Below are positions 7,482 through 18,281 of a stretch of DNA of 64,000 nt, one piece after another (positions within the stretch are counted from its first letter, which is position 1; each line of letters begins with the position of its first letter). Location: the NCBI RefSeq assembly GCF_900091465.1, contig NZ_FMHV01000002.1, positions 4,526,001 to 4,590,000 on the forward strand, given 5' to 3'. This stretch comes from Micromonospora rhizosphaerae (GTDB taxonomy: Bacteria; Actinomycetota; Actinomycetes; Mycobacteriales; Micromonosporaceae). The notes beneath the pieces were generated by a model. That model worked only from the letters and a program-made list of their open reading frames with translations. It ran no database searches and was not told the DNA's origin. Both the position numbers and the translations under genes were made by a program.

Positions 7482-8741
7482 TCACTGTCCACCGGCCGCT
7501 GTCCCGGGCCACCGCTCCCGACCAGCGAGAAGTGCCCGTCCATCAAGTGAATCTGGGCTGCCGTCGGGTTCTTGGTCGCCGTTGCGGGATACGCAGGCGG
7601 CCGTGACCGCGGCCACGGGGTCCTGGTAGGCCCGGGCGAGGAAGCTCATCCACTGATAGACCGCGTCCTCGTTCGGCGCCAACGGTCCTACCCGGTAGTG
7701 GGGCGACGACAGCCCACGCTGGACCGACTCGCACGCCGCCCAGTCCTCGCGATTCGTGATGTCCCAGAACTCCACCGCGTACGCCACCTCCGTCACGTCC
7801 TGCGGCACGTACCAGCTGCACTCGACTCGCGTCCGGTCCGGCGCGAGCGGGTCGATGCGGTGCGTCATGACGTAGTCGGGGTGTGCCGAGATCAGCAGGT
7901 TGGGCAAGAGCCCGACGTACCGGACCGTGCGGCGGGGAGCCCCGTCGATGAACAGCCCGCGTGACCGACCGTCCAGCGACATGGTTTCGGCGTGCTCCCG
8001 CAGGTCCATCGAACCGCCGATCCAGGCACCCGGCAGGTCCCAGTTGTCGCCCGATGTCGGCGGCGAGACCCGGCAGAGCTCCGGGTGGATGCGCGGGCAG
8101 TGGTAACACTCGTGGTAGTTCTCCACGATCACTTTCCAGTTCGCCGCGACGTCGTACACGTGGCGGTCGCCAAGGCGCAGGCGCTGGGGCTGGTACGGCT
8201 CGATCAGCCCGTCCAGGGCGCCGAGGTATTCGGCGAACGGGGGAGCCTCGCCCGCCGCGTTGACGAACACCCAGCCCTGCCATTGCGTTACCGGCAGCTC
8301 GATCAGGCCGTGGTCCGCGGGATCGAACCCCTCCACTCCGCCCATGGCAGCCGCCGCCGCCAGCGTGCCGTCCAGCCGGTAGGCCCATCCATGGTAGGGG
8401 CACACGATCGCCGCCCGGTCCGCTGTCGCGCCCGCGGCCAGCAGTTCGTGGCCGCGGTGCCGGCACACGTTCGCCAACGCTCGCACAGTCGCGCCGTCGA
8501 AGGTCAGGAGCACCCCGATGTCGCCGACGGTGACCGCCCGCTGGTTGGCCGTCCCGCGCAGCTCCTCGTGCCGGCCGACGCAGACCCAGCTTCCGCCGAA
8601 GAGGTGTCTGCGTTCCCATGCCAGCACCGCCGGCGAGGTGTAGGCGCGGGCCGGCAAGGTCCGTGAGCTGCCGAATGGCAACGACGCCGCGACGAGGTCG
8701 TGCGCGTCCAACGGTGCGGCTGGGCCATCGAAGCGATCCAC
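7482..8741 (-). CDS. Rieske non-haem iron oxygenase, alpha subunit type
   Basis: 419 residues. The GTG at 8741 is set by GGAGG 5 bases upstream of the spacer. The Rieske 2Fe-2S ligands are C-R-H-R-G-H and C-P-Y-H-G-W, and the mononuclear iron site is NYHECYHCPRIHPE, the arrangement of choline monooxygenase / carnitine- and betaine-demethylating oxygenases. It needs a ferredoxin reductase, which is not encoded nearby. The substrate is probably a small quaternary amine or aromatic; neither can be decided here. An isolated gene, with the HNH gene immediately downstream. Confidence 0.88.
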   Translation of the reverse strand: MDRFDGPAAPLDAHDLVAASLPFGSSRTLPARAYTSPAVLAWERRHLFGGSWVCVGRHEELRGTANQRAVTVGDIGVLLTFDGATVRALANVCRHRGHELLAAGATADRAAIVCPYHGWAYRLDGTLAAAAAMGGVEGFDPADHGLIELPVTQWQGWVFVNAAGEAPPFAEYLGALDGLIEPYQPQRLRLGDRHVYDVAANWKVIVENYHECYHCPRIHPELCRVSPPTSGDNWDLPGAWIGGSMDLREHAETMSLDGRSRGLFIDGAPRRTVRYVGLLPNLLISAHPDYVMTHRIDPLAPDRTRVECSWYVPQDVTEVAYAVEFWDITNREDWAACESVQRGLSSPHYRVGPLAPNEDAVYQWMSFLARAYQDPVAAVTAACVSRNGDQEPDGSPDSLDGRALLAGRERWPGTAAGGQ

Positions 8742-8921
8742 CGCAACCTCCTGCCGCCCGTCATCACCCGCGCGGCGCTCCCGGGTGGCCCCGATCAAAC
8801 CATCGCAGGGGTACGAGCGGTCAAGGGGTGGTGACGGGAGCACGACATCGGGCTTGTCAGGATATTTGCGCGCACGGATAATTCAAGGCCACCACGTTGC
8901 TACCCACGGGGGGTGGTGGGG

Positions 8922-9629
8922 ATGGCAGCCGCGGAGGCACCTGTCGCACACCGCGCCATGGACGGCCGCCGGTTCCTGCTCAGCGGCCCACTCGACTTCA
9001 GCGCGCCGTTCACCTCGGTGGTCGAGCTGACCATCGCCGGCCGGGAGCACGAGTTCACGGCCGGCTCGGTCGGCCTGGCCGACGAGCTGGCCCAGGCGCT
9101 CGGCGTCACCGACTTCGACGAGCAGCTCAACTATCAGGGCGGTGCCCTGTTGACGGCGCGCGTGACGTCGTACGACGCGCAGGTCCAGCTCGACGAGGAC
9201 CGGCTGGTGGCGGCGTGGCGAGGGCGCCGGTACTGCTTCGTCACCCAGCTGTACGGCGCCTCGACCGCAGATCTGCTCGCGGTGCTGCGGACACTTCGGA
9301 TCGCTGAGCACGGCGACGGTCTCGCGGTGCGTCCCGATGCCAGTGCCGGCAGCCGGATCGCGGCGCCGGCAACCGTGATCAAGCAGGTGCCCGGACTCGG
9401 CCTGCTGGACCTGGCGCCGCTCACCGCCGAGCGCGCGCGACAGTTGCCGTCGTGGCGCGGATTGCGGACCCGGGCGGGAGAGCTCTTCCGGGACACGCTC
9501 TCGGACGGCAAGCCGTATTTTGTGCTCGCCGCCGCGGACACCTGGGTGACCGTGCTACCACTGGCCGACACCGTGGTCGACCGGGTACCGGACCTGGTGG
9601 ACCGGCTACGCGTCCAGTCGGTCGAGTAG
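8922..9629 (+). CDS. Unknown protein, first gene of the MauED-like cluster
   Basis: About 235 residues with no family I recognise. It has no signal peptide or membrane segment. It contains two alternating beta/alpha-rich halves and only one cysteine (RRYCFVTQLYG). ATG 8922 is chosen because GGGGGG at 8908-8913 is well spaced; a GTG at 8913 is possible. It is followed after 6 bases by the MauE-like gene, and the next three genes all overlap, so it belongs to the same operon. In methylamine utilisation operons this slot holds the dehydrogenase heavy chain, but the length and composition here do not fit a beta-propeller. Confidence 0.65.
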   Translation: MAAAEAPVAHRAMDGRRFLLSGPLDFSAPFTSVVELTIAGREHEFTAGSVGLADELAQALGVTDFDEQLNYQGGALLTARVTSYDAQVQLDEDRLVAAWRGRRYCFVTQLYGASTADLLAVLRTLRIAEHGDGLAVRPDASAGSRIAAPATVIKQVPGLGLLDLAPLTAERARQLPSWRGLRTRAGELFRDTLSDGKPYFVLAAADTWVTVLPLADTVVDRVPDLVDRLRVQSVE

Positions 9630-9635
9630 GCCGTC

Positions 9636-10199
9636 GTGTCCGCCCTGGTGGCCAGCGTGGCGGCGTACACCGTGCTGCTCACCCTGCTCACCGCCTGCGG
9701 TGAGCACCTCTCGAAGCCGGCGGCCCTGTCGACCGCGGTGGCCGCCCACCGGGTGGTTCCGGCGCCGTCCATCGTCGCGGCGCTGGTGATCGCGACCGAG
9801 GGCCTGCTCGGCGCAGCCGGAGTCGTCGCCCTGCTCCGCGACGGCAGTGGCCGGCTGCTGGCCGTGGTCCTGGCCGGCAGTGCCGCACTCCTTGCCACGT
9901 ACGTGGGCTACGGCCTGTACGTGAGGTCGACTGGGCGGGCCGTCCCCTGTGGGTGCTCGCGGGTGGAAGTGCCGATGACCGGCTGGGTGGTGGCGCGCGC
10001 GGCCACGCTCGCCGGCCTGGCCGTGGTCGGATCACTGCTGTCCGGCGCGGTCGTGCCGGTGGGGCGAGCCAGCACCTCACTCACGATCGTCCTGCTCGCC
10101 GCAGCGACGTTCACCGCGCTCCTGGCGCACCTGCCCGCCGCCATGCACGACCCGGATCAGCCGCCCGTGCCGGTGGAACAAGGAGGCGTACCCGGATGA
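9636..10199 (+). CDS. MauE/DoxX-like membrane protein
   Basis: 187 residues, four to five hydrophobic helices. The MauE hallmark of a Cys-Gly-Cys pair after the second helix pair is visible as AVPCGCSRVEVP. MauE proteins are thought to work with MauD in forming or shuffling disulfides of the cysteine-rich methylamine dehydrogenase light chain in the periplasm. Here it directly precedes a MauD-like gene (ATGA overlap at 10196-10199) and a 12-cysteine exported protein, so the same role is inferred. GTG start at 9636. Confidence 0.75.
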   Translation: MSALVASVAAYTVLLTLLTACGEHLSKPAALSTAVAAHRVVPAPSIVAALVIATEGLLGAAGVVALLRDGSGRLLAVVLAGSAALLATYVGYGLYVRSTGRAVPCGCSRVEVPMTGWVVARAATLAGLAVVGSLLSGAVVPVGRASTSLTIVLLAAATFTALLAHLPAAMHDPDQPPVPVEQGGVPG

Positions 10200-10744
10200 G
10201 TTTCCAGACGAGCGCGCTGATCCTGAGCTGGATCGCGATTCTGCTGCTGGCCCTCGTGGTGTCCGGCCTGGTACGTCAGGTGCACGCCCTGTCCAACGGC
10301 GCGGTCGGCCGCCCTGCGTCCGTCGGCCTGCGGCCCGGCTCGCCGGCGCCCCGGTTCCGTGACCTGGCGCCGCCGGCCCCGAACACCCTGGTCCTGCTCT
10401 TTCTGGTCCCCAGCTGCACGACCTGCGGCCAACTGCTCGACGAGGCCGCGGAACAAAGTCAACGGACCGATGCCGTGCTTCGAGTCCTCTACCGGCAGGC
10501 TGTCCCGCCACAAGCGGCAGACCTGCCGATGACCGTCCTCGGCGAACAGGGGGACCTGTTCGACCGGTACGACGTCATCGCCACCCCGTTCGCGGTCGTG
10601 ATCGACGCGACCGGGCGCATCCGGCGATCCGAGCCGGTCGGCTCCCGGGCGGCACTGCGCCACCTGCTCGACCAGGCCGACAACTCGTCCGGCGGCGGTG
10701 CCGGGCCGACCGTCCACCCGAGCCCACAGGGAGGCACGCTGTGA
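10196..10744 (+). CDS. MauD-like membrane-anchored thioredoxin
   Basis: 182 residues. A single N-terminal transmembrane helix (about 7-28) is followed by an extracytoplasmic thioredoxin-like domain with the redox motif C74-T-T-C77 in VPSCTTCGQLLDE and the cis-Pro segment IATPFAVVID. MauD is the partner of MauE in maturing disulfide-rich proteins. It overlaps both neighbours by 4 bases, so it is co-translated with them. The redox partner is probably the MauE-like protein encoded upstream, and the client the cysteine-rich protein encoded downstream. Confidence 0.8.
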   Translation: MSFQTSALILSWIAILLLALVVSGLVRQVHALSNGAVGRPASVGLRPGSPAPRFRDLAPPAPNTLVLLFLVPSCTTCGQLLDEAAEQSQRTDAVLRVLYRQAVPPQAADLPMTVLGEQGDLFDRYDVIATPFAVVIDATGRIRRSEPVGSRAALRHLLDQADNSSGGGAGPTVHPSPQGGTL

Positions 10745-11682
10745 CCACCCTCGACGCCGTACCCCCGCTGAGGGGGACAGACCCCGGTACCGGCACCGCG
10801 TCCCGGCGGCGCGGGCCGGCGAATCGGACCAGGAGTCGTTTCACCCTGTCCTGGGCGCTGTCCCGGCGCACGCTGCTCCAGGCCGGCACTGCGGTGGGAA
10901 TGGCCGCGTTGAGCATCTTCCCGGCCGCGCGCCGCGCCTACGCCGACGGATACACGATCTACGGCGGGTGCCCGACGTACGCCACGGACCACAACTGTTC
11001 CCCCGGCTGCGGTCCGAGCCCGATCTTCGGCGATGCCTGCAACACCAGCGGCACGTACGCCGGCTTCCACAAGAACAACGGCACGACCTGGAAACTGCGG
11101 CCGAACCAGTGCTACGCCGGCACGTACGACGGCTGGCTGTGGCGCTACCAGGGCGCGTGCGGCGCCTGCGCGTGCCATGTGGAGCGCCGGTGCCACGACG
11201 GGTACAAGAAGACCAGCTCGGGCTGGGTCAGGTCGATCTGCCGCTGGAACACCAGCTGCGGCTGCCTCTCCTCGGTCAGCTGGCCGACGACGAAGCGGGG
11301 CCAGACCGGCACGAACGTCTACACCGTGCAACACCTGCTGACCGCGCGCGGCTATCCCACCACGATCGACGGGATCTTCGGCAGCGGCACGGAGACCAGG
11401 GTGAAGCAGTTCCAGACGGCCAAGGGAATCACAGCGAGCGGTGTTGTCGACGCCAAGACGTGGTCCGCCCTCGTGATCACCGTGCGCTACTCGAACAGCG
11501 GTCAGGCCGTGAGCGGCGTGCAGCGGCAACTCAGGAAACACGGATACAGCCTGCCCGTCACCGGGTACTTCGGTTCGCAGACCGATGCCGCGGTACGGGA
11601 CTTCCAGCGGAAGAACGGGCTCTACGTCGACGGAATCGTGGGACAGAACACCTGGCGCACGCTCACCGGCGGCAGGGTATGA
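10741..11682 (+). CDS. Tat-exported 12-Cys (MauA-like) protein with two peptidoglycan-binding domains
   Basis: 313 residues. A twin-arginine signal (SRRTLLQ, then a hydrophobic core and a YADG cleavage region) exports it folded. Residues about 77-185 form a compact domain with exactly 12 cysteines, the number that makes the six disulfides of methylamine dehydrogenase light chain, and several tryptophans (GTTW, DGWLW, SGWV, RWN). Two PG_binding_1 repeats follow, each with the D-G-x-F/Y-G-x-x-T core (IDGIFGSGTETRVKQFQ and VTGYFGSQTDAAVRDFQ). No heavy chain or MauG is encoded nearby, so an amine dehydrogenase cofactor is not assumed. A wall-anchored, disulfide-rich protein matured by the neighbouring MauED pair is the best reading. 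Confidence 0.7.
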   Translation: MTTLDAVPPLRGTDPGTGTASRRRGPANRTRSRFTLSWALSRRTLLQAGTAVGMAALSIFPAARRAYADGYTIYGGCPTYATDHNCSPGCGPSPIFGDACNTSGTYAGFHKNNGTTWKLRPNQCYAGTYDGWLWRYQGACGACACHVERRCHDGYKKTSSGWVRSICRWNTSCGCLSSVSWPTTKRGQTGTNVYTVQHLLTARGYPTTIDGIFGSGTETRVKQFQTAKGITASGVVDAKTWSALVITVRYSNSGQAVSGVQRQLRKHGYSLPVTGYFGSQTDAAVRDFQRKNGLYVDGIVGQNTWRTLTGGRV

Positions 11683-12443
11683 CGAGTCGTCAGCCATCCG
11701 TAGGACCCGTGCGGCCGCTGCGCCGCTGGGTCACTGACCCGCTCGTACCCGTCCTGCTGCTCACCGCCGGCGCGATGCTCTCCGCCGCGTACGGGCACGT
11801 GCTCACCTGGGCGATTGTCGGCGGGCTCGCCGGCTACACCCTCTCCGGCTCGGTTTGAACCCGCAACAGCGCGTACGCGCTGGCCTCGCCCGGGCGGCGA
11901 GATCGCAACCCGCAGGGGAAGCTCCTCACCCTGTTCGTCCTGGGGCTGATCGCCGGCGGCCTGCTCAGCGGGGTGGTCCTCGGGGCGCTCTCCGGGCTGT
12001 CCGCGCCGCTGCCGGCGTCCTGGCGGTACGCGACCATCGTGACGGTGGCGCTGCTGGGAGTGCTCCGGGAGGCCGGGGTGGTGACCATCCCCCTGCCACA
12101 GAACCCCCGCCAGGTGCCGCAGGACGTGCTGCGGCGGAGCCCCCGGCGCGGAGCGCTGCGATTCGGCTTCGAACTCGGCACCGGCGTGCGGACGTACGTG
12201 TCGGCCACCGCCCCGTACGTGCTCGCGGTGGCGGTCTTCCTCGGCGGTCAGCGCCTGCAGGTCGCCGCGCTCGCCGGTGTCGGTTTCGGCGCGGGGCGCG
12301 CCGCCACCCCGCTCATCCGCCGCGCCTCCGGGGCAGTCGAGGACTGGGACGCCGACCTGGCCGCACGACTTCGCATCATCACCGTGGTGGGGTGCCCCGC
12401 GCTCGCCGCCGCCTTCGGCCTGCTCCTCCTGCACCACTTGTAG
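11679..12443 (+). pseudogene. Membrane protein gene interrupted by an in-frame TGA
   Basis: ATG 11679 overlaps the stop of the preceding gene. After 59 codons (a polar N-terminus and one long hydrophobic region ending LAGYTLSGSV) a TGA occurs at 11856-11858. The same frame then stays open to 12443 and continues as a sensible membrane protein: a polar loop RNSAYALASPGRRDRNPQGK, then LLTLFVLGLIAGGLLSG and further helices. The only late start, GTG 11973, would cut off a transmembrane helix. A Trp codon changed to TGA, or a sequencing error, explains this best. The intact product would have about 254 residues with 4-5 helices, in the MauED-like operon. The family is not recognised. Confidence 0.6.
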
Positions 12444-14829: not shown

Positions 14830-16032
14830 GTGACGACGCCAGCGCCGATGAGCCGCGACGAGGTCGACTTCGCCATCGTCGGGCTCGTCGCGGCGCACGA
14901 CCGGATCTCGGCCGCCATGTACGCGCTGGACGCCCATCCCGGCCTCGTCGTGCTGCGGGGCGACGACCTGCGGGGCAAGACGCGCCGGGTCGCCATCGAG
15001 ACACTCCCGCGGCTCGACGTCCTGTGGTCGCAGTTCGCCGCGGTGCGGTCCGTGCTGGACCGGGTGAAGACGGTACGCGGGGAGCGGTCGAGGCCCGGCG
15101 ACGACGAGTTGCACGAGCTGACCGTGCTGCTGCGCGGTCCCGTCCTACCGCTTGCGCCCGACGGCATGGTGGTCGACGACCCGCTGGCCGGGGCGCCGCC
15201 GAACTGGGTGACCGCGATGGGTCTGGCCCAGGAGCTGGAGCGGGCCAGCGCCGAGGTCACCGGGACGCTCGACGGCGTCCAGTCGGCGTACGCGGAGATC
15301 GCGGCTCGGTTCGAGCCGCTGACCAAGGCGTTGGACCGGGCCCGGGCGGCCGCCGAGGCGCTGGGGTACGCCGCCACGGGGTCCGAGGTGGAGCGTCTCG
15401 ACGTACGCCTGGCCGAGGCGACCTTCGACGCGATGTGTGACCTGCTGGACACAGCTGGACCCCCGTCGGCGCTGGCTGCCGAGATCGAGGCGGTCACCGC
15501 CCGGCTGGCCGACCTGACCCGGCTGCGCGACGCCTACCCGGACCGGGTGCGGCGGCTGCGGGCCGCCGTGGACGAGGTGGCCGCGGCCGAGGACGAGACC
15601 GGCCGGGCGTACGCCGTCGCGAACGAGAAGATCGCCAACCCTGGCCTGCCGCCGGCTCCCGACGCGGTCCCGGCGCTGCGGGCGCACCTGGCCCAGCTCG
15701 ACCAACTGCACCGCGAGCAGCGCTGGCCCCGGCTCGCGGACGAGCTGTCCGTGGTGGAGCGGTCGGTGGCGGAGGCCCGGGAGCGCGCGGCCCACCTGCG
15801 CGAGGCAGCCGAAGGACTGCTGCGCCGCCGGGCTGAGCTGCGCGGCCGGCTCGACGCCTACCGCGCCCGAGCGGGGCGGCTTGGCCTGGCCGAGCACGCC
15901 GAGCTCGCCGTGCGGCATCGGACCGCGCAGGACCTGCTCTACACCAGCCCCTGCGACCTGCCGGCGGCCACCCGCGCCATGGTCGCCTACCTGCGATACC
16001 TCAACGAGCTCACGGAGAGGGGGCACCAATGA
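14830..16032 (+). CDS. Alpha-helical protein of the PknG cluster, function unknown
   Basis: 400 residues, almost entirely helical and rich in Ala, Arg, Glu and Leu, with long heptad-like stretches (for example ALAAEIEAVTARLADLTRLR and VERSVAEARERAAHLREAAE). No signal peptide or membrane segment is visible, so it is cytoplasmic. It sits between the sensor lipoprotein and the kinase in a run of overlapping genes, so it may be a scaffold linking GlnX to PknG. That role is inference from position. GTG start 2 bases after the previous stop. Confidence 0.7.
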   Translation: MTTPAPMSRDEVDFAIVGLVAAHDRISAAMYALDAHPGLVVLRGDDLRGKTRRVAIETLPRLDVLWSQFAAVRSVLDRVKTVRGERSRPGDDELHELTVLLRGPVLPLAPDGMVVDDPLAGAPPNWVTAMGLAQELERASAEVTGTLDGVQSAYAEIAARFEPLTKALDRARAAAEALGYAATGSEVERLDVRLAEATFDAMCDLLDTAGPPSALAAEIEAVTARLADLTRLRDAYPDRVRRLRAAVDEVAAAEDETGRAYAVANEKIANPGLPPAPDAVPALRAHLAQLDQLHREQRWPRLADELSVVERSVAEARERAAHLREAAEGLLRRRAELRGRLDAYRARAGRLGLAEHAELAVRHRTAQDLLYTSPCDLPAATRAMVAYLRYLNELTERGHQ

Positions 16033-18281
16033 GGTGTGTCCGGTCCGGTTGCCCCGGCTCGTACGGCGCCGAGGGCTACTGCGACGAATGCGGGCGCCGA
16101 GCGCCGGCGGGCGCAGCTGTGACGTCCCCGGGCGCCAGCGTGGCGACCGCCGCAGCGACGCTACCGTCCGTCGCCACGGTCAGCGCCGGCTCGGTGCGCA
16201 CCGGATCCGGTCGCAGCCGCCCCGCCGCGCGCGGCGGTCTCGGCGCCGGGCTGATCGACATCCCGCGGGTACCGCTGCGCGACCCGGCCACGGCAGTCAT
16301 GAGCGACCCGAAGGTGGCCGAGTCGCGGCGCTTCTGTACGCAGTGCGAGGCGGCGGTGGGCCGCGGGCGGGACGGCAAGCCGGGCCGGGCCGAAGGCTTC
16401 TGCCCCAGCTGCGGCCACCCGTTCTCGTTCCTGCCGCGGCTGCGCGCCGGCGACCTCGTCAACGGCCGGTACGAGGTGCTCGGCGCGCTCGCGTACGGCG
16501 GGCTGGGCTGGATCTACCTGGCCCGGGACCGCAACGTGAGCGACTCGGTCAGCGATCGCTGGGTCGTCCTCAAAGGGCTGATCAACACCGGCGACGGCGA
16601 CGCCATGGCGTCGGCGGTGACCGAGCGGCGGTTCCTGGTCGAGATCGACCACCCCAACATCGTGAAGATCCACGATTTTGTGCAGCACCCCGATCCGAAG
16701 ACGGGCGAGCTGGTCGGCTACATCGTCATGGAGTACGTCGGCGGCCAGTCGCTGCGGGACATGCTGGTGGCCCGGCGCGCCGAGGGCGCGCGGGTGCTGC
16801 CGCTGCCGGAGGTGATCGCGTACGGGGTGGAGATTCTGCCCGCGCTGGGTTACCTGCACGACCGCGGCCTGATCTTCTGCGACTTCAAGCCGGACAACGT
16901 CATCCACGCCGAGGAGCAGCTCAAGCTCATCGACCTGGGCGGCGTCCGGCGGGCCGACGACGACGTCAGCGCAATCTACGGAACGCCCGGATACCAGGCG
17001 CCGGAGGTGGCCGCCGTGGGCCCGTCGGTGGCCTCCGACATCTATACCGTCGGGCGGTCGCTCGCCGTGCTCAGCTTCGAGTTCCGCGGGTTCTCCAGCA
17101 CGTACGCCGACCGGCTGCCCGACCCGTCGGAGGTGCCGCTGCTGGCCCAGGAGGAGTCGTACCACCGGCTGCTGCGCCGGGCCACGCACCGGGAACCGGC
17201 CCGGCGATTCCAGTCCGCGGCCGAGATGAGCGAGCAGCTGCTCGGCGTACTCCGGGAGGTGGTGTCGGCCGCCGACGGCGTGCCGCGGCCGACGCTGTCC
17301 CGCCGGTTCACGCCCGAGCGGCGGGCGTTCGGCACCGGTGCCGGCGAGGTCGGTGACGCGGTGGTCACCGATCTCCGCCCGGCGAGCGTCGCCGCCGCGT
17401 TGCCGCTGCCGCAGGTCGACGTCCTCGATCCCGGTGCCGGCCTCCTGGCCACGCTGAGCGTCACCGACCCGGACGAGGTCATCCGAGAGCTGACGGCCGC
17501 GCCGGTGCAGAGCGTCGAGGTGGCGCTCCGGCTGGTCCGGGCGCGCATCGAGCAGGGCGATCTCGCCGGCGCGCTCGCCGGCCTCGACGAGCTGGCAGCG
17601 GCCGATCCGTTCGACTGGCGGATGGACTGGTACCGCGGCCTGGCCGCGCTGGCCGCGAACACCCCGGGAGAGGCTCGGGTCGCGTTCGACGCGGTCTACA
17701 ACGAGCTGCCGGGCGAGCCGGCCGCCCGGCTGGCGCTGGCCGCCGCGGTCGAGTGCACCGGCGACCCGAGCGCGGCCGAGCGGCTCTACGAGCGGGTGTG
17801 GCGGGTCGACCACGGCTACCTCAGTGCCGCCTTCGGGCTGGCCCGGATCCGGCTGGCGGTCGAGGACCGGGCTGGCGCGCTGGCCGTACTCGACCAGGTG
17901 CCGGACAGCTCCAGCCTGCACGTCGTCGCCCAGGTGGCCGCCGTGCGCGCCAGCCTGCGCGCCACCGCGCACCCGGTCAAGCCCGACGACCTGCTGCACG
18001 CGTCCGGGCGGCTGGAACGGCTCAGCCTCGATGTCGAGCGCCGCGCTCGGCTCGCCGTCGAGGTGCTGGAGGCGGCCCTTGCCTGGATCACCGCGACCCG
18101 GTTGCCCGGGCATCGCCTGCCGCCCGGCGCCGGGGTGCTGGGCCATGAGCTGACCGAGCGAGGGCTGCGCCTCGGGCTGGAGCAGGCGTACCGGGCGATG
18201 GCGCAGCTGGCCCGCGACACGGACACCCGGATCGCGCTCGTCGACCGGGCCAACGCCGTTCGACCCAGGACGCTCGTGTGA
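16029..18281 (+). CDS. pknG: PknG-like serine/threonine protein kinase
   Basis: 750 residues with the PknG architecture. An N-terminal zinc-knuckle-like set (C3, C8, C18, C21) and a linker precede the rubredoxin-like metal site (C103-x-x-C106 and C125-x-x-C128). Next comes the kinase domain: glycine-rich loop ALAYGGLGWIYLA, Lys182 in VVLKGL, catalytic FCDFKPDN (Asp285) and DLGG in place of DFG, as in PknG. The C-terminal third is TPR-like (AALAGLDELAAADPFDWRMD and following repeats). Mycobacterial PknG phosphorylates the FHA protein GarA and thereby steers 2-oxoglutarate metabolism. Overlaps both neighbours by 4 bases. Confidence 0.93.
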   Translation: MRCVRSGCPGSYGAEGYCDECGRRAPAGAAVTSPGASVATAAATLPSVATVSAGSVRTGSGRSRPAARGGLGAGLIDIPRVPLRDPATAVMSDPKVAESRRFCTQCEAAVGRGRDGKPGRAEGFCPSCGHPFSFLPRLRAGDLVNGRYEVLGALAYGGLGWIYLARDRNVSDSVSDRWVVLKGLINTGDGDAMASAVTERRFLVEIDHPNIVKIHDFVQHPDPKTGELVGYIVMEYVGGQSLRDMLVARRAEGARVLPLPEVIAYGVEILPALGYLHDRGLIFCDFKPDNVIHAEEQLKLIDLGGVRRADDDVSAIYGTPGYQAPEVAAVGPSVASDIYTVGRSLAVLSFEFRGFSSTYADRLPDPSEVPLLAQEESYHRLLRRATHREPARRFQSAAEMSEQLLGVLREVVSAADGVPRPTLSRRFTPERRAFGTGAGEVGDAVVTDLRPASVAAALPLPQVDVLDPGAGLLATLSVTDPDEVIRELTAAPVQSVEVALRLVRARIEQGDLAGALAGLDELAAADPFDWRMDWYRGLAALAANTPGEARVAFDAVYNELPGEPAARLALAAAVECTGDPSAAERLYERVWRVDHGYLSAAFGLARIRLAVEDRAGALAVLDQVPDSSSLHVVAQVAAVRASLRATAHPVKPDDLLHASGRLERLSLDVERRARLAVEVLEAALAWITATRLPGHRLPPGAGVLGHELTERGLRLGLEQAYRAMAQLARDTDTRIALVDRANAVRPRTLV

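Follow-up and report, generated by a model that had tools for sequence, protein, structure and literature searches.

An in-frame UGA in a conserved actinobacterial operon with MauE- and MauD-like genes points to a membrane selenoprotein encoded beside an exported cysteine-rich protein

Membrane thiol carriers of the DsbD/CcdA family have a pair of redox-active cysteines (Cys) in two helices. The known TsoB (NF045694), a selenoprotein resembling a rhodanese/DsbD fusion, is catalogued as DsbD-like and, in the part of the 2026 selenoprotein catalogue available to us, is listed with two selenocysteines (Sec; UxxxxU) and a rhodanese part (PMC13188914). Three candidate families of ribosomally synthesized and post-translationally modified peptides (RiPPs) with mauE, one of them also with mauD, were described in Streptomyces in 2020; their precursors carry at least eight Cys, an oxidation role was suggested for MauE, and the accessible text reports no other mau orthologues in those genomes (PMC7794033). 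Here we describe an operon of Micromonospora rhizosphaerae, found in a stretch of 64,000 nucleotides (the window, to which all coordinates refer), in which genes for a first protein (p1), a MauE-family protein, a MauD-like protein and an exported Cys-rich protein are followed by a gene split by an in-frame UGA.

We consider it very probable that this UGA is decoded as Sec, because four lines of sequence evidence agree: the relatives of the gene, the tRNA-Sec machinery, the position of sel genes and an RNA hairpin. The operon itself, the conserved UGA, the Cys that occupies this site in relatives, the hairpin and the genomic link to tRNA-Sec were established by computation. Translation of 11835-12443 gives LSGSV, a stop, and then a protein continuing in the same frame. 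A sequence-only reading of the window had seen four coupled genes with the last one starting near 11976; its first three genes, together with p1, were confirmed, while the last one proved to be only the 3′ part of a longer frame, open from 11679 to 12443 save for one TGA at 11856-11858. With this TGA read as U, a protein of 254 residues with Sec at position 60 (U60) is predicted.

We assembled 53 loci with the Cys-rich protein (the window, L001-L004, L081-L083, L085-L087, L098-L102 and L143-L179) and examined them with iterated profiles. The first membrane piece of the split gene was recognised in 48 of them and the second in 52. In all of these 52, the codon preceding the second piece was TGA, and the residues flanking it are conserved: LSGSV comes before it in the 48 loci with a recognised first piece, TSGSV in L163, and SGAI, SGST and AASP in L082, L083 and L081, respectively, while [TSN]xN[SAG] comes after it (52 loci). 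Two ordinary genes, i.e. one for a membrane peptide of 59 amino acids with the UGA as its usual stop and another for a distinct membrane protein made by downstream re-initiation, would find some support in the first start-type codon, mostly GTG, which in 25 of the 52 loci is the seventh codon beyond the TGA; in one locus it appears at codon 6, and in 26 at codon 12 or later, including the window, where the first start codon comes only at codon 30. Yet the separating codon is TGA in all 52 loci, the residues between it and the first start are conserved, Cys-type homologues run continuously across the site and the gene is linked to tRNA-Sec (see below); we regard re-initiation as highly unlikely.

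More distant relatives were collected with a profile of the read-through protein, which matched 34 of 396 genomes sampled from the phylum (E-value ≤0.001; Sec- and Cys-type relatives included). Among 27 loci of such relatives (L221-L247), 20 have TGA at the site, six have Cys in its place (L223, L224, L227, L238, L240 and L242) and one is a fragment (L221). In the TGA-type relatives G-x-S follows the TGA immediately, most often in the form WSP-TGA-GxSM, and L246 is the most divergent. Members of this broader UGA/Cys family (L222-L247) are often located near a mauD-like frame within their 3-kb loci. Because of this proximity, there may be a wider Sec-dependent module that does without the Cys-rich protein.

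A pair of hairpins follows the UGA. The upper one has 6 bp, with 97.0% of cells paired in 45 distinct sequences (80.4% for the lower one), and the same upper hairpin was picked by RNAalifold. We applied the limits for the bacterial selenocysteine insertion sequence (bSECIS) given in the accessible part of the catalogue (PMC13188914): 50 of 52 sequences fell within them, as against 17 of 72 codon-shuffled controls. Codon usage in the loop is also unusual. In 51 distinct sequences the loop Pro codon is CCA in 28 of 39 cases (background 69/2508, 2.8%) and the loop Gly codon is GGT in 30 of 34 (background 386/4426, 8.7%), a choice of rare codons that is hard to explain by needs of the protein.

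Next, we compared genomes for the presence of tRNA-Sec, taking matches of 59 bits or more as clear (all other matches scored 53 bits or less). A clear tRNA-Sec was found in 52 of 53 genomes with the operon and in 15 of 27 controls (Fisher test, 3.0e-6). The same trend was seen within family f92 (30/30 versus 5/9; 1.5e-3) and within genus g8 (12/12 versus 1/9; 4.4e-5). For the broader relatives, 17 of 20 genomes with the UGA type and none of six with the Cys type had tRNA-Sec (3.6e-4); it was also found in three of four genomes of further, unclassified relatives, and in three of ten mycobacterial-side genomes with no match to the family. As to the sel genes, of the 52 loci other than the window, 21 have selA, 16 have selB and 21 have selD; in 12 loci the selD midpoint lies within 900 bases of p1. 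ARAGORN predicted tRNA-Sec in 23 of 23 loci with a Sel cluster and in none of the 11 other loci scanned. In the genome of the window, selA, selB and tRNA-Sec are located ∼160 kb from the operon. The operon genomes G771, G1042, G1007 and G956 (L164, L165, L179 and L156) each have two clear tRNA-Sec genes, one of them in the operon stretch; among the genomes listed, two were also present in at least six more operon genomes (G1029, G965, G997, G928, G973 and G978) and in at least one control (G932).

Several observations weigh against reading the UGA as Sec. The loci share ancestry, and the counts and Fisher values therefore overstate independence. All nine controls from the genus Micromonospora have tRNA-Sec without having the operon; therefore the association is uninformative within that genus. 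No clear tRNA-Sec was found in one operon genome (G927) and in three of the 20 genomes of UGA-type relatives, all four being apparently drafts. In the genome of the window, selD was found neither in the window nor in a 13-kb stretch with sel genes, the sole areas searched. As to the hairpin, for 12 of the 50 sequences within the bSECIS limits a different one (loop CGCC) was picked first, 24% of the codon-shuffled controls also fell within these limits, and covariation is weak: pair changes on both sides numbered 2 against 1.2 expected, with 166 of 500 shuffles giving a value as high.

Table 1. Features of the operon, with positions in the window
Feature	Position	Strand	Remark
p1, 235 amino acids, no family assigned, first gene of the operon	8922..9629	+	
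MauE-family membrane protein with CGC motif	9636..10199	+	PF07291 48.9 bits; CxC Cys pair kept
MauD-like membrane-anchored CxxC protein (here CTTC)	10196..10744	+	CxxC in 53/53 loci; below MauD cut-off
Exported Cys-rich protein of twin-arginine translocation (Tat) type, two PG_binding_1 repeats	10741..11682	+	
Cys-rich domain (12 Cys), WxW and RCHDG invariant	10942..11292	+	
Two PG_binding_1 repeats	11290..11664	+	
Probable membrane selenoprotein gene, 254 amino acids with UGA as Sec (U60)	11679..12443	+	
In-frame UGA, proposed Sec codon	11856..11858	+	TGA in 52/52 loci; Cys codon in six distant relatives
Lower hairpin, proposed SECIS region	11867..11882	+	80.4% of cells paired, 45 sequences
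Upper hairpin, proposed bSECIS, GG in loop	11885..11901	+	97.0% of cells paired; RNAalifold; within published limits

The genes that the sequence-only reading had listed are present and tightly packed (8922-11682), with 4-base overlaps at mauE/mauD, at mauD/12-Cys gene and between the 12-Cys gene and the next gene. Its assignment of mauE held (PF07291, cut-off 27 bits), and both Cys of the CxC motif are kept in 51 of 52 loci. The mauD product resembles MauD in its place in the operon and in its CxxC, which was retained in every locus, although the score to TIGR02661 was only 16.7 bits at a cut-off of 188.6. Across the 53 loci we detected p1 in 52, mauE in 52, mauD in 53 and the Cys-rich protein in 53. 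The exceptions are L145, with no p1 (its stretch begins inside mauE), L163, with no mauE, and L086, with neither membrane piece. The usual gene orders are p1-mauE-mauD-Cys-split gene and p1-mauD-Cys-split gene-mauE; in L082 mauE follows the Cys gene and precedes the split gene. Two neighbours were noted by eye: a frame for a Rieske-type ring-hydroxylating oxygenase (7482-8843, minus strand), directly upstream of the operon, and, downstream of it, a long frame part of which resembles a Ser/Thr kinase (16029-18281, plus strand).

The frequency of matches to the Cys-rich protein in sampled genomes was 7/396 for the phylum (three doubtful), 6/394 for the class, 7/200 for the family, 30/150 for family f92 and 11/199 for genus g8; because only some of the candidates in each genome were scored, these figures may be underestimates. 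Among named full-length orthologues of the 12-Cys protein, the closest comes from Micromonospora phytophila. A separate scan for related loci gave 61, of which L001-L004 were kept as full-length orthologues and the other 57 match mainly the PG-binding part. Extra copies of loci already included (L084, L088 and L089) were not counted. The three doubtful hits of the phylum sample (G018, G033 and G095), short matches near the signal region with E-values of 1e-4 to 6e-4, were left out of the 53; one of the loci L090/L091 from the short-match set was searched for operon genes and none was found.

The Cys-rich product is a Tat-type protein of 313 amino acids. The sequence-only reading gave it 12 Cys, a twin-arginine signal and two PG_binding_1 stretches. 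All 12 Cys are present and invariant in an alignment of 40 relatives, and the two stretches were recovered with an E-value of 6.8e-37; an RR signal is there, though the TAT_signal match is weak (E-value 0.024, below cut-off). A set of exactly 12 Cys did not turn out to be a fixed property: orthologous operons have between 6 and 14 of them within the stretch that matches. Where half of the Cys are gone, a WxW pair and an RCxDG (CxDG) motif persist, hinting at a functional site beyond disulfides.

The same reading saw in this locus the maturation machinery of methylamine dehydrogenase (MADH) reused for a MauA-like protein. The gene order MauE-MauD-Cys-rich is what such a view expects, and the 12 Cys in the branch of the window agree with it. 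No sequence, profile or fold link from the Cys-rich domain to MauA was found, and the Cys count varies from 6 to 14; we find this explanation very improbable, and the earlier interpretation of the locus is, on the whole, partly supported. Attempts to connect this domain with MauA through Pfam, NCBIfam, PDB profiles, hhalign and two fold comparisons produced no usable result: PF02975 was not matched by the domain, and a local hhalign match to MauA was discarded (P 0.012, probability 3.5%, 31 columns only). A PF02975 search of the genome itself gave no match, and 0 of 14 control genomes gave a signal either; the predicted model of the domain had no match in PDB, which alone does not disprove a MauA fold. 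One could also imagine a RiPP-like system with MauE and MauD processing a Cys-rich precursor, by analogy with the mauE/mauD families whose precursors have at least eight Cys according to the available text (PMC7794033). Such a system hardly fits a Tat-type protein of this length that carries PG-binding repeats along with a domain conserved from end to end, a domain whose stand-alone forms are mostly 160-210 amino acids long, and its likelihood is very small.

What could the selenoprotein do? A membrane selenol/thiol relay is proposed because one relative matches DsbD_2 and the Cys pairs of MauD and MauE are kept: of four broader relatives scanned, one scored above the DsbD_2 cut-off (26.2 versus 24.9 bits), and the other three matched DsbD_2 or DsbD_TM below cut-off. 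In our view the operon probably specifies a Sec-dependent, DsbD-like membrane relay that acts, together with MauD and MauE, on disulfides in the exported protein. The last gene would be read through its UGA under direction of the downstream hairpin and of SelA, SelB and tRNA-Sec encoded elsewhere in the genome. Its product is predicted to be a small polytopic membrane protein, a distant kin of DsbD/CcdA-type thiol carriers, with one selenol standing where the relatives without selenium have Cys. Most likely, the MauD-like CxxC protein and the CGC protein MauE would be its partners in an electron exchange across the membrane, and these two would form, correct or reduce disulfides of the Tat-exported Cys-rich protein, the presumed client; p1 may assist this protein inside the cell. 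Electrons could flow either way, as in DsbD-like reduction or isomerisation or as in oxidation.

Speaking against a relay, none of 22 operon-type proteins scanned matched DsbD models, and the split-gene protein has no second conserved Cys, with only the U/C position being conserved. These facts, a single conserved redox residue and operon-type proteins outside the DsbD models, along with the persistence of WxW and RCxDG beyond half of the Cys, would suit a selenoprotein serving some other process, e.g. transport of or signalling by selenium or metal compounds, with the Cys-rich protein acting as its partner and not as a client for disulfide chemistry. The constant company of CxxC (53/53) and CxC (51/52) proteins and the DsbD_2 match of a relative argue the other way, and we think another process unlikely, if less so than the other alternatives considered above.

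The family of membrane selenoproteins of Actinobacteria is apparently undescribed before. Seven read-through proteins compared with NCBIfam 20.0 gave no match better than E-value 0.09; in Table 1 of the catalogue, no entry was recognised as the split-gene family (PMC13188914); and a literature search, whose coverage did not extend to Haft and Tolstoy 2025 (mSystems), gave no description of a split-gene selenoprotein. Residues encoded by UGA are easily lost in annotation; therefore, database entries for the membrane protein are probably split or cut short. If the proposed reading is true, it adds a selenoprotein family that, counted together with its Sec- and Cys-type relatives, has matches in 34 of the 396 actinobacterial genomes sampled; it gives a possible explanation for the retention of selenocysteine by some Streptomyces-type genomes (tRNA-Sec in 12/12 with the operon versus 1/9 without); and it makes a selenium-dependent disulfide route outside the cytoplasm testable, with a concrete candidate client.

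The operon shares features with several known systems. Like the mau genes, it has a MauE family member, a MauD-like CxxC protein and an exported Cys-rich product; unlike theirs, its proteins do not match MauD or MauA models. The decRiPPter families resemble it in having mauE, once with mauD, next to a Cys-rich product, whereas those products are described as RiPP precursors and no selenoprotein is mentioned in the accessible text (PMC7794033). TsoB is also a selenoprotein described as DsbD-like, yet it is listed with two Sec and a rhodanese part in the catalogue portion at hand (PMC13188914), while the split-gene protein would have one Sec and gave no NCBIfam match (seven scanned). With DsbD/CcdA (PF13386, PF02683) there is the likeness of a small polytopic membrane protein beside a thioredoxin-like protein; the difference is that the selenoprotein has a single U/C position with no second conserved Cys. 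Tentatively, and at somewhat less than even chance, we would see here a Sec-dependent extracytoplasmic thiol pathway of Actinobacteria, in which a single-selenol carrier, not a canonical two-Cys DsbD/CcdA, acts jointly with MauD and MauE on one dedicated, exported Cys-rich protein of unrecognised fold; in some lineages (g8, presumably Streptomyces) keeping the operon may be one of the chief reasons for retaining the Sec system.

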